From Thermoplasmata archaeon (GTDB lineage: Archaea; Thermoplasmatota; Thermoplasmata; Lutacidiplasmatales; UBA184), in assembly GCA_022749895.1 (NCBI GenBank), contig JAKIWS010000006.1, positions 1 through 64,000 of the forward strand: a stretch of 64,000 nucleotides of DNA, written 5' to 3'. Under the pieces are notes generated by a model. The model was given only the letters and a program-made list of their open reading frames with translations. It searched no databases and was not told where the DNA came from. The first letter of the stretch is position 1, and the number at the start of each line of letters is the position of its first letter. Below, piece by piece: positions 31,368 through 34,853 of this stretch. Made by a program: the position numbers and the translations under genes.

Positions 31368-34300
31368 TTGGACGCGTACTCCCGCTCGATCGACGTCGCC
31401 GTTCACGAAGCCTACGCGGTCGCGTCGGCCGCTCGCCGCGCCGGGTTCGACCCGACGACCAAGCCCGAGATCCCGCTCGCCGAGGACATGGCGATGCGCG
31501 TCGAGAAGCTGCTGGGGCATCTTCCGCTGGAGGGGATCGCGCTCGAGATCCGCGAGCTCGCGGCGACCCTGCCCCGGGAAGAGGTCGCCGTCGCGATGGC
31601 GCGCCGGATCGCGAAGGACCCCAAGCGGGGGCGCGACCTGGAGTCGCGTCTGGACGCCGCGCTGAGGGTCGGGCTCGCGATCTTGACCGAGGGGATCCTC
31701 GTCGCCCCCCTCGAGGGGTTGGCGGAGGTCCATCTCCGGGCGAACGGGGGAGCGGAACCGTACCTCGAATTGTACTACGCCGGGCCGATCCGGGCGGCCG
31801 GGGGAACAGCGCAGGCGCTCTCGGTCCTCCTCGCCGACGTCGTGCGGCGGGACGCCGGGCTCGGTGCTTTTCACGCGACGTCGGCCGAGGTCGAACGGTA
31901 CAAGGAAGAGATCCCGCTCTACAAGCATCTCCAGCATCTCCAGTACGTTCCCTCCGCCGCGGAGATCGCCACGATCGCCCGGAACGTCCCGGTCGCCATC
32001 TCCGGGGAGTCGACGGAGGGCGACGAGGAGGTCTCGGCGTTCCGGGACCTGCCCCGGGTCAGCACGAACGGAATTCGTGGCGGGGCGTGCCTCGTGATCG
32101 CGGAGGGGCTCTGCCAGAAGGCTCCCAAGCTTCGGAAGATCGTGGAGAAGCTCGGACTCTCGGGATGGGAGTTCCTCGATGAGCTCGGACGATCGACGGC
32201 GACCGACGATTCTCCGCACGATCCCAAGTACCTGGCCGAGGCCGTCGGCGGGCGGCCGGTCCTGGCCCACCCGAACCGTCCGGGGGGCTTCCGCCTCACC
32301 TACGGCCGGGCGCGCACGGCCGGTCTCGCCGCCTGCGCGGTGAACCCGGCGACGATGGTCGTCCTGCGGAAGTTCATCGCCATCGGGACGCAGGTGAAGG
32401 TCGAGTACCCGGGCAAGGCGACCGCGATGGGGGTCTGCGACACCATCGAGGGCCCGATCGTCGAGCTCGACGACGGGACGTTGCTCGGTGTGAACGACGC
32501 CGCGAGCGCCGAAGCGATCCTTCCGCGTCTCACCCGGATCGTCGACCTCGGGAGCCTCTTGGTCCCGTTCGGCGAGTTCCTCGAGAACAACCGGAACCTC
32601 GTCCCCGGGGCGTACTCGCCCGCGTGGCACGAAGAGGAGCTGCGCGCCGCGGGCGGCGACACGGACCGGGCTTCCCGGGTACCGACCGTCGCCGAAGCGG
32701 TCGCGATTGGTCGACGGCTCCACATCCCGCTCCATCCGGCCCACCTCCTGTTCTGGCACGACCTCGTCCCGGAGGAGCTCCGGTCGCTGGCGGACGGGGT
32801 GGAGCGACACGGCCGATTGATCGAAGGGCGCCTCCTCCTCGCCCCCGCGTCGGTCGACCACGAGTGCCTGGTCCGGCTCGGGTGGTTGCACCAACGGATG
32901 CCGGACGGGTGTCTACGGGGCGAACCGGAAGCTTCCGCCACGCTCCTCCTTGGGCTCGGCCTGCAAGAAGCCGACGGCCGCGCCGTGCGGAGAGTTCCGT
33001 GGCCGGAAGGGACCGTCGACGTTCTCGCCCTCGTCAGCCTCCTCGCGGGGGTGGAGGTCCGCGCCCGCGCCCCCTCCCGTGTCGGCGCCCGGGTCGGCCG
33101 CCCCGAGAAGGCGCGCCAACGGACGATGAGCCCGAACGTGCACGTCCTGTTCCCGCTCGGCGAAGCCGGCGGCTCCCACCGCTCGGTCCCGGAGGCGGCC
33201 CGACGCACGATCGGCGGCGGCGTCGCCGTGCAGCTGGGCGTGCGTCGATGCCCCGATTGCGAAGGATCCACCGTGTGGCCGAAATGCAGTTGCGGCGGGC
33301 ATTCCGAGCCGACGGGCGACATCGTCACCGAATCGCTCCCCGTCGCCCCGCTCTGGGCCCAGGTCGTCGAGCGGATGCACCTCCGGCGGGCCCCGGAGGT
33401 GAAAGGCGTCAAGGGCCTCACGTCGCCGGGGAAGGTTCCGGAGCTCCTCGACAAAGGGGCGCTCCGGGCGGTCCACGGCGTCTCGGTCTACCAGGATGGT
33501 ACCACGCGGTTCGACCTGACCGATCTACCGTTGACCCATTTCCGACCGCGCGAGATCGGCCTGCCGATCGAGCGCGCGCGCGCGCTCGGCTACACCACGG
33601 ACTGGCTCGGGGCCCCGCTGAACGAAGGAGAGCAACTGGTCGAGCTGTACCCGCAGGATCTCATCGTCGCCCGCGCGTGCGGGGAGTACCTCCTCCGCGT
33701 CGCCCAGTTCGTCGACGACGAGCTCGTCCGGATCTATCGGCTGGAGCCGTTCTATCGGGCCTCGAGGGTGGGGGAGCTCATCGGAGCGCTCGTCGTGGCC
33801 CTCGCGCCGCACACGTCGGGCGGGGTCACGGGGCGCATCATCGGGTTCACGGAGGCCGAGGCCTGCTTCGCCCACCCCGCGTTCCACGCGGCGAAGCGCC
33901 GGAACTGCGACGGGGACGAGGACTCGGTCACGCTCATCTTGGATGCGCTGATCAATTTCTCCCGAGCGTACCTCCCGTCGAGCCGGGGCGGTCTCATGGA
34001 TAAACCGCTCGTCCTCACCACCCGCCTCGATCTCGCCGAGGTCGACAAGGAGGCCCACAACGTCGACGTCGCCGTGCGCTACCCGCTCGCCTTCTACCGC
34101 GCCGCCGCCGAAGGACGGCACCCGAAGGAGGTCGAGTCGCTCATCGCGACCTTGGGACGTCGCCTCGGCCGTGACGAACCGATGCGGCATCTCGGGTTCA
34201 CCCACGACACGCAGGACATCGCGGGAGGCCCGGTGCTCTCGGCGTACCGGGAAGCCGGCTCGATGAATCGGATCGTCGAGCAGTCGATGACGCTCGCCGC

Positions 34301-34718
34301 CCAGATCCGTGCGGTGGACGTGGCCGACGCGGTGCGCCTCGTGCTCAACAGCCACTTCCTGCCCGACGTCATGGGCAATCTCAAGAGCTACGCGACGCAG
34401 AAGTTCCGCTGCAAACGGTGCAACACGTCGTACCGCCGGCCGCCGCTCGCGGGCCGTTGCACCGCGCCGGTCGCCGGCGGCTCCGCGTGCGACGGCGAGC
34501 TTTTGCCCACGGTCCACGAGGCGAACGTCCGCAAGTACATCGCGCTCTCCCAGCGGCTCGCGGCAATGGACGGCGTCCCACCATACCTGCGGCAGCGGAT
34601 CGGCATCCTCGAAGCGTCGCTCGCGACCTTGTTCCCGGGCACGGCATCGCAGACGACGCTCGACGGCTTCCCCCCCGCGGCGGGCCGGGACCCGGCGCGC
34701 GACGACGCACCGGCCTAA
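31368..34718 (+). CDS. polC/polD2: DNA polymerase II (PolD) large subunit DP2, no intein apparent
   Basis: YYAGPIRAAGGTAQALSVLLADVVRR, NGIRGGACLVIAEGLCQKAPKL, FAHPAFHAAKRRNCDGDEDSVTLILDALINFSRAYLPSSRGGLMDKPLVLT, C-terminal zinc finger. Confidence 0.97.
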   Translation: MDAYSRSIDVAVHEAYAVASAARRAGFDPTTKPEIPLAEDMAMRVEKLLGHLPLEGIALEIRELAATLPREEVAVAMARRIAKDPKRGRDLESRLDAALRVGLAILTEGILVAPLEGLAEVHLRANGGAEPYLELYYAGPIRAAGGTAQALSVLLADVVRRDAGLGAFHATSAEVERYKEEIPLYKHLQHLQYVPSAAEIATIARNVPVAISGESTEGDEEVSAFRDLPRVSTNGIRGGACLVIAEGLCQKAPKLRKIVEKLGLSGWEFLDELGRSTATDDSPHDPKYLAEAVGGRPVLAHPNRPGGFRLTYGRARTAGLAACAVNPATMVVLRKFIAIGTQVKVEYPGKATAMGVCDTIEGPIVELDDGTLLGVNDAASAEAILPRLTRIVDLGSLLVPFGEFLENNRNLVPGAYSPAWHEEELRAAGGDTDRASRVPTVAEAVAIGRRLHIPLHPAHLLFWHDLVPEELRSLADGVERHGRLIEGRLLLAPASVDHECLVRLGWLHQRMPDGCLRGEPEASATLLLGLGLQEADGRAVRRVPWPEGTVDVLALVSLLAGVEVRARAPSRVGARVGRPEKARQRTMSPNVHVLFPLGEAGGSHRSVPEAARRTIGGGVAVQLGVRRCPDCEGSTVWPKCSCGGHSEPTGDIVTESLPVAPLWAQVVERMHLRRAPEVKGVKGLTSPGKVPELLDKGALRAVHGVSVYQDGTTRFDLTDLPLTHFRPREIGLPIERARALGYTTDWLGAPLNEGEQLVELYPQDLIVARACGEYLLRVAQFVDDELVRIYRLEPFYRASRVGELIGALVVALAPHTSGGVTGRIIGFTEAEACFAHPAFHAAKRRNCDGDEDSVTLILDALINFSRAYLPSSRGGLMDKPLVLTTRLDLAEVDKEAHNVDVAVRYPLAFYRAAAEGRHPKEVESLIATLGRRLGRDEPMRHLGFTHDTQDIAGGPVLSAYREAGSMNRIVEQSMTLAAQIRAVDVADAVRLVLNSHFLPDVMGNLKSYATQKFRCKRCNTSYRRPPLAGRCTAPVAGGSACDGELLPTVHEANVRKYIALSQRLAAMDGVPPYLRQRIGILEASLATLFPGTASQTTLDGFPPAAGRDPARDDAPA

Positions 34719-34752
34719 AGCGGAAATACCGAGAGCGGGCTCCTTCCGGCGC

Positions 34753-34853
34753 GGGCTTGTAGGGTAGTCTGGACTATCCTTTTGGCCTTCGAAGCCAAAG
34801 ACGTGGGTTCGAATCCGCCGGGGCACCCGGCGGCGAAACTCCCACCAAGCCCG
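34753..34853 (+). tRNA. tRNA-Arg(TCG) with intron in the T-loop
   Basis: Acceptor GGGCTTG/CAAGCCC; D-arm GGGT..ATCC with GG; anticodon arm TTGGC-CTTCGAA-GCCAA; T-stem GTGGG/CCCAC completed only after removing ~26 nt. Confidence 0.87.
34814..34839 (+). other. tRNA intron (26 nt; equivalent boundaries 34815..34840)
   Basis: hBHBh': outer helix GTGGG/CCCAC, bulge AAT, 4-bp helix TTCG/CGAA, bulge ACT, inner 8-bp helix CCGCCGGG/CCCGGCGG with GCA loop. Confidence 0.82.

Follow-up and report, generated by a model that had tools for sequence, protein, structure and literature searches.

Introns outside the canonical position of archaeal tRNA genes, and multiple introns per gene, have been described in Crenarchaeota, Thaumarchaeota, Nanoarchaeum, Korarchaeum, ARMAN and three thermophilic methanogens (PMC4033280, PMC3218864). 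In Euryarchaeota with splicing endonucleases of the α4 or α'2 type, introns are confined to fewer than 10% of tRNA genes, each of which has a single intron at the canonical site (PMC4090602). Broad specificity towards relaxed or displaced introns has been attributed to two loops situated near the active site, the CSL (15–18 residues) and the ASL (11 residues) (PMC6379350, PMC12397907). No published T-loop introns from Thermoplasmatota were found in openly accessible papers; annotation in GtRNAdb is possible. The paper describing Candidatus Lutacidiplasmatales called tRNAs with tRNAscan-SE and does not mention introns in its main text (PMC9287336).

The locus analysed here lies in a window of 64,000 nucleotides (the whole stretch of DNA that was analysed) from a soil archaeon of Candidatus Lutacidiplasmatales (TMEG; Thermoplasmatota), whose MAG comprises 2.02 Mb in 106 contigs and is 83% complete. 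The host resembles Thermoproteales (Pyrobaculum, Thermofilum) and other Crenarchaeota, which carry bulge-helix-bulge (BHB) introns at sites other than the anticodon loop, the T loop among them, with many introns per genome and multiple introns per tRNA. However, the crenarchaeal enzyme is an (αβ)2 protein with a Crenarchaea-specific loop (PMC6379350, PMC12397907), whereas that of the host is α'2 and lacks the loop, and the T-loop introns found in the host phylum share a single site, 59/60. A BHB junction at exactly 59/60 is also known from the permuted tRNAs of Thermofilum pendens and Cyanidioschyzon merolae (PMC3218864), although in the host the exon order is normal and the gene carries an intron instead of being permuted. 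With canonical euryarchaeal introns (Archaeoglobus fulgidus) the host shares the strict BHB of its TTCG-type introns and the endonuclease architecture, but differs in the position of the intron (59/60 vs 37/38) and in the proportion of intron-bearing genes (about 44% of located tRNA genes vs <10%; PMC4090602). ARMAN-2 is likewise an acidophilic archaeon with noncanonical and relaxed introns; unlike ARMAN-2, which has an ε2 endonuclease, the host lacks a three-unit protein.

An insert in the T loop of the tRNA-Arg(UCG) gene

Direct reading of the sequence revealed a complete tRNA-Arg(UCG) gene on the + strand, corresponding to a 101-nt precursor (34753–34853). It presents a 7-bp acceptor stem (GGGCTTG/CAAGCCC), the discriminator G, the anticodon loop CTTCGAA and a T stem formed by GTGGG (34803–34807) and CCCAC (34841–34845). 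The T-loop exon parts, TTCGAA (34808–34813) and T (34840), are split by 26 nt, so that the intact tRNA with a T-loop insert described in the earlier note was borne out. When 34814–34839 are removed, a 75-nt tRNA with a canonical T loop (TTCGAAT/CCCAC) results, identical in layout to the intronless genes of two relatives (L129 and L131, see below). The TATA-like element AAATA located upstream of the gene (Table 1) has counterparts at a similar distance in most of 58 orthologues, where it forms part of a CCAAATA-type box.

RNAfold analysis of the T arm plus the insert predicted a 5-bp helix, a 4-bp helix (TTCG/CGAA) flanked by the 3-nt bulges AAT and ACT, and an 8-bp helix closed by GCA. The fold thus contains two 3-nt bulges on opposite strands with a 4-bp helix between them and helices flanking them, i.e., a strict BHB, which is both the MFE and the centroid structure (-25.7 kcal/mol, 72% of the ensemble, z = -3.2); only 2 of 200 shuffled sequences folded equally well. 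The MFE structure coincides exactly with the BHB drawn in the earlier note. For the whole 101-nt precursor, a cloverleaf plus the BHB was predicted (RNAfold, z = -4.8).

In archaea, each bulge of a BHB is cut after its second nucleotide, and the site of about 59/60 proposed earlier holds under this rule. Since the first nucleotide of the intron and nucleotide 60 of the exon are both T, cuts at 59/60 and at 60/61 would give identical mature RNA. We favour 59/60 on the basis of the BHB cut rule and of the other introns, whose first nucleotide can be any base.

ARAGORN returned zero tRNAs in the window and missed the tRNA-Arg(UCG) gene, whereas the Rfam tRNA model matched 34753–34826 with 29.1 bits, just 0.1 above its cut-off of 29, in a match that ends inside the intron. 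The warning that default tRNA finders may fail on this gene was therefore well founded, and tRNA inventories of Lutacidiplasmatales MAGs obtained with default tools may be incomplete.

Table 1. Features of the tRNA-Arg(UCG) locus (positions within the window).
Feature	Position	Strand	Evidence or remarks
DNA polymerase II large subunit (DP2), 1116-aa ORF	31368..34718	+	Upstream neighbour; relatives 44–87% identity
TATA-like promoter element AAATA	34724..34728	+	29–25 nt upstream of tRNA 5' end
5' exon of tRNA-Arg(UCG), nucleotides 1–59	34753..34813	+	Sequence; R1/R2 covariance hits 1–107; 5' part conserved in 58 orthologues
T stem 5' strand GTGGG, outer BHB helix	34803..34807	+	Sequence, RNAfold
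Central 4-bp helix, 5' strand TTCG, T-loop 54–57	34808..34811	+	RNAfold; pairing kept in 57/57 introns
5' bulge AA/T, predicted 5' splice site after 34813	34812..34814	+	RNAfold; cut by archaeal BHB rule
26-nt intron, T-loop position 59/60	34814..34839	+	Sequence, fold, covariation; absent at orthologous locus in L129, L131
Inner helix, 5' strand CCGCCGGG	34815..34822	+	RNAfold; first six pairs covary
Inner helix, 3' strand CCCGGCGG	34826..34833	+	RNAfold; covariation
Central helix, 3' strand CGAA	34834..34837	+	RNAfold; covariation
3' bulge AC/T, predicted 3' splice site after 34839	34838..34840	+	RNAfold
3' exon: nucleotide 60, T stem 3' strand, acceptor 3' strand, discriminator G	34840..34853	+	Sequence

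Conservation, covariation and loss of the intron at orthologous loci

Orthologous loci were anchored on DP2, which tRNA-Arg(UCG) follows in related loci. The closest named DP2 relatives are Thermoplasmata archaeon MAGs, including UBA184, UBA61 and Candidatus Lutacidiplasma silvani AcS3-62 (65–87% identity). An insert at the same site was read in same-genus loci and in named MAGs in which the gene follows DP2, and the comparison of orthologues, which had been put forward as a check, yielded 58 distinct gene sequences with 57 distinct introns of 23–38 nt in related MAGs. Furthermore, when an intronless Arg(UCG) was used as query, nearly all same-genus genomes matched only to position 61–65 of 74, the point at which the insert starts.

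In the central helix, the pairs 54 T-A/G, 55 T-G/A, 56 C-G and 57 G-C are each present in all 57 introns. In the inner helix, these introns form 5.42 of the first 6 pairs, vs 3.99 (sd 0.11, maximum 4.44 of 1000) with 3' arms exchanged among the introns, and the corresponding values for 66 other T-loop introns are 5.11 and 2.73 (sd 0.15). Judged from sequence comparison, the predicted BHB of Arg(UCG) is beyond chance, being a motif with covariation across 57 distinct orthologous introns.

The intron is absent from the Arg(UCG) gene at the same locus in two genomes (L129 and L131, in G061 and G062), which reads TTCGAATCCC uninterrupted; both genomes keep at least eight other T-loop introns. In the DP2 tree, L131 (full support) and L129 (support of 89) sit beside intron-bearing relatives, and therefore at least three changes, e.g., one gain and two losses, are required.

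A second intact tRNA-Arg(UCG) gene was not found in the 83%-complete genome of the host, and in G029, a genome rated 100% complete, the sole Arg(UCG) match carries the intron and no intact intronless copy was found. Another intact copy, which the earlier note had named as an alternative, was thus found in neither genome.

The splicing machinery and a proposed route of processing

The host genome contains an RtcB gene and a single splicing-endonuclease gene; the latter encodes a 353-aa protein in which two PF01974 domains are present. The EndA protein conserves the catalytic Tyr, His and Lys residues, aligns over its full length with the A. fulgidus α'2 enzyme, and gave an AlphaFold model (pLDDT 92.7, pTM 0.87) whose closest structures are 5x89 (M. 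kandleri) and 2gjw/1rlv (A. fulgidus), with TM values of 0.75–0.77, vs 0.54 for 4fz2 (ARMAN). With one gene, two repeats and a C-terminal catalytic repeat, the host EndA is assigned by sequence and model to the α'2 type, with a predicted homodimeric structure, in answer to the earlier question of which endonuclease architecture the genome encodes. The ε2 type is not matched (353 aa and two repeats vs three fused units and about 395 aa).

At the CSL site the host EndA reads YGSRVGARLELSL, which has the length of wild-type A. fulgidus and no insertion (the corresponding stretch of the A. fulgidus CSL chimera 3p1y comprises 23 residues), and a CSL-site insertion is also absent in the 23 class members aligned. 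No ASL-like insertion was seen in the host EndA by general alignment and model, a comparison coarser than a residue-by-residue one. The segment DGRTGRPV was considered as a CSL-like insertion and discarded, as it is class-wide and also present in the narrow-specificity enzyme of M. jannaschii (1A79).

The gene, the motif and its covariation, the orthology, the conserved site, the intronless relatives and the enzyme genes are all direct observations. We consider it very probable that this is a functional and apparently the only tRNA-Arg(UCG) gene, with its own promoter and a genuine 59/60 intron spliced by EndA and RtcB, in an arrangement that extends across the family. For the transcription, cutting, ligation and order of processing of the precursor, we infer the following route. 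The gene would be transcribed from its own conserved promoter, and the intron in the precursor would pair with T-loop nucleotides 54–57 and form its own hairpin, giving rise to the strict BHB. The homodimeric α'2 EndA would then cut each bulge after the second nucleotide, and RtcB would ligate the exons into a normal 75-nt tRNA. As T54–G57 are held in a helix by the intron, the T-loop/D-loop elbow would be blocked until splicing, and therefore its formation, as well as the modification of the T loop, should come only afterwards; end maturation would probably also follow splicing.

Other introns in the host genome

Covariance models of intron-bearing tRNAs, R1 and R2, were built from alignments A3 and A5. 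With R1 by itself, the search of the genome did not recover the Asn, Ala and Ser introns. R2 scores intronless Arg tRNAs at 71–75 bits, and its hits were therefore judged by span and sequence instead of by score alone. Together with low-scoring tRNA hits, the covariance models revealed at least 12 T-loop introns in the host, all at 59/60, in tRNA-Arg(UCG), Arg(UCU), Glu(CUC), Gln(CUG), Gly(UCC), Asn(GUU), Ala(GGC), His(GUG), Asp(GUC), Ser(GCU), Ser(CGA) and Ser(GGA). D-loop introns are present in Arg(GCG) (G000:C30:52464-52569:-, L209) and Pro(UGG) (G000:C30:78060-78167:-, L210), and four anticodon-loop introns, in Tyr, Met, Trp and Leu, were read from the sequences. In total, 18 of the 41 located tRNA genes (about 44%) bear introns. 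The D-loop inserts have counterparts at the corresponding place in G018 and G029, and that of Arg(GCG) also in G061 and G062.

The T-loop introns are of two types. In five of the 12 the loop is TTCG and a strict BHB is possible, whereas the other seven have a TTCA loop with GGA[A/G] opposite, in which A57 faces G, a relaxed motif. The A57-type introns do not form a strict BHB because their central helix is weaker, with A57 usually opposite G. In a wider set of A57-type introns, the opposing intron base is G, not U, in 34 of 41 cases, which places an A-G next to the bulge. Strict-BHB introns demand nothing special of an α'2 enzyme, their position alone being unusual; the true puzzle lies with the relaxed introns, whose processing by a loop-less α'2 enzyme is less certain.

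Distribution of 59/60 introns across Thermoplasmatota

Two well-assembled genomes of the same genus as the host (G018 and G029) carry an identical set of 14 T-loop-intron tRNAs each. The additions over the host set are Lys(UUU) and Leu(UAG), both of which also have a D-loop insert (L268, L300, L305, L303) and would need two splicing events, since D-loop and T-loop inserts are both present. In another family of the order (G038), T-loop introns are mostly 13–15 nt long and often accompanied by a second intron in the anticodon or D loop; its short introns (L279, L282, L289, L293, L327–L330, L332) leave no room for an inner helix and are of the bulge-helix-loop type. Three T-loop introns each were found in G037 and G039. 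Sequence comparison suggests that 59/60 introns were inherited across the family, with some losses.

In a survey of the phylum restricted to genomes at least 80% complete, R2 (threshold E <= 1e-14) produced a hit in 47 of 247 genomes. One of these 47 (G214) is intronless, because its hit spans only 75 nt. The controls gave the expected result: in two Methanothrix-type genomes, one Methanoperedens and two single-chromosome 'Thermoplasmatales' bins, the matches listed had lengths of 71–76 nt. Long hits retrieved from other families within the phylum carry the intron at 59/60 in 20 of 20 cases. The Methanomassiliicoccales MAGs OWC_0013 and DTU008, the DP2 of the latter grouping with that of OWC_0013, contain T-loop and anticodon-loop introns. 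In addition, a tRNA-Arg(UCU) with a T-loop intron of 20–27 nt was observed once each in L340, L341, L354 and L357, which belong to a large class family (f8), possibly Methanomassiliicoccales.

These data support the earlier description of a T-loop intron with a strict BHB in a Thermoplasmatota host. The view that it would be unusual for the phylum agrees with the literature but turned out to be too narrow, as at least 12 such introns occur in this genome and many families carry them; the surprise shifts from one gene to the whole lineage. The individual introns are of a known kind, and the interesting part is the lineage-wide set combined with a CSL-less α'2 enzyme. The chances appear evenly balanced that a phylum-wide, largely unrecognised set of 59/60 introns, including relaxed ones (A57-G; 13–15 nt), is processed by an α'2 EndA that lacks CSL and ASL. 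If so, the model in which a broad substrate range co-evolves with the CSL and ASL loops would be incomplete. A Thermoplasmatota order with T-loop introns in about one third of the tRNA genes and a CSL-less α'2 enzyme makes the enzyme–intron co-evolution model testable with one purified protein.

Alternative explanations of the insert and of its maintenance

Regarding why the intron is kept, it could be other than a neutral relic and shield the 3' half of the tRNA from integrases, following the published hypothesis of Randau and Soll (PMC3293823). Every T-loop intron found lies at 59/60, within the usual att region, a location that fits this hypothesis. Nevertheless, we regard it as unlikely: the analysis found no integrase/att pair able to distinguish genes with the intron from those without it, and the Arg(UCG) intron is missing in two lineages. 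The 3' end of a spliced tRNA (TTCGAATCCCACCAAGCCC) has an exact copy of 20 nt at G007:C74:10182-10201 (L214, about 4983). It adjoins a trypsin-like protease ORF, inspection of the neighbouring ORFs showed no integrase, and a link to integration via this copy was dropped.

A role of the intron in steering the folding of the RNA, by hiding a T loop that is complementary to the anticodon loop, is considerably less probable. In the mature tRNA-Arg(UCG), the anticodon loop UUCGAA is complementary to the T loop UUCGAA, and the best predicted fold of the spliced RNA pairs both loops (-34.3 vs -33.4 kcal/mol for the cloverleaf), while the precursor folds as a cloverleaf. However, this margin is below 1 kcal/mol in a prediction that ignores tertiary contacts and modifications, and the complementarity is missing in most other T-loop-intron tRNAs; moreover, an intronless tRNA of another class member (L075) has the loops CTTCGAA and TTCGAA. 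The folding-chaperone idea was set aside as weak.

As to the nature of the insert itself, its stable hairpin (-25.7 kcal/mol) could suggest that the mature tRNA keeps it in the form of a longer T arm. This is hardly credible, as the insert varies between 23 and 38 nt among orthologues around a fixed splice motif, the elbow bases 54–57 would remain paired, and the T loop of two close relatives is normal at the same locus. Least probable of all is a non-functional pseudogene or scar, with 26 nt left by a mobile element or an assembly error: although the intron sits in the tRNA 3' half, a common site of integration in archaea (PMC3293823), conservation across orthologues speaks strongly against an assembly error or pseudogene, since the site, motif and promoter box persist with covariation in 58 distinct orthologous gene sequences, the relative rated 100% complete has solely the intron-bearing Arg(UCG), and the same architecture recurs in 12 different tRNAs of the host.
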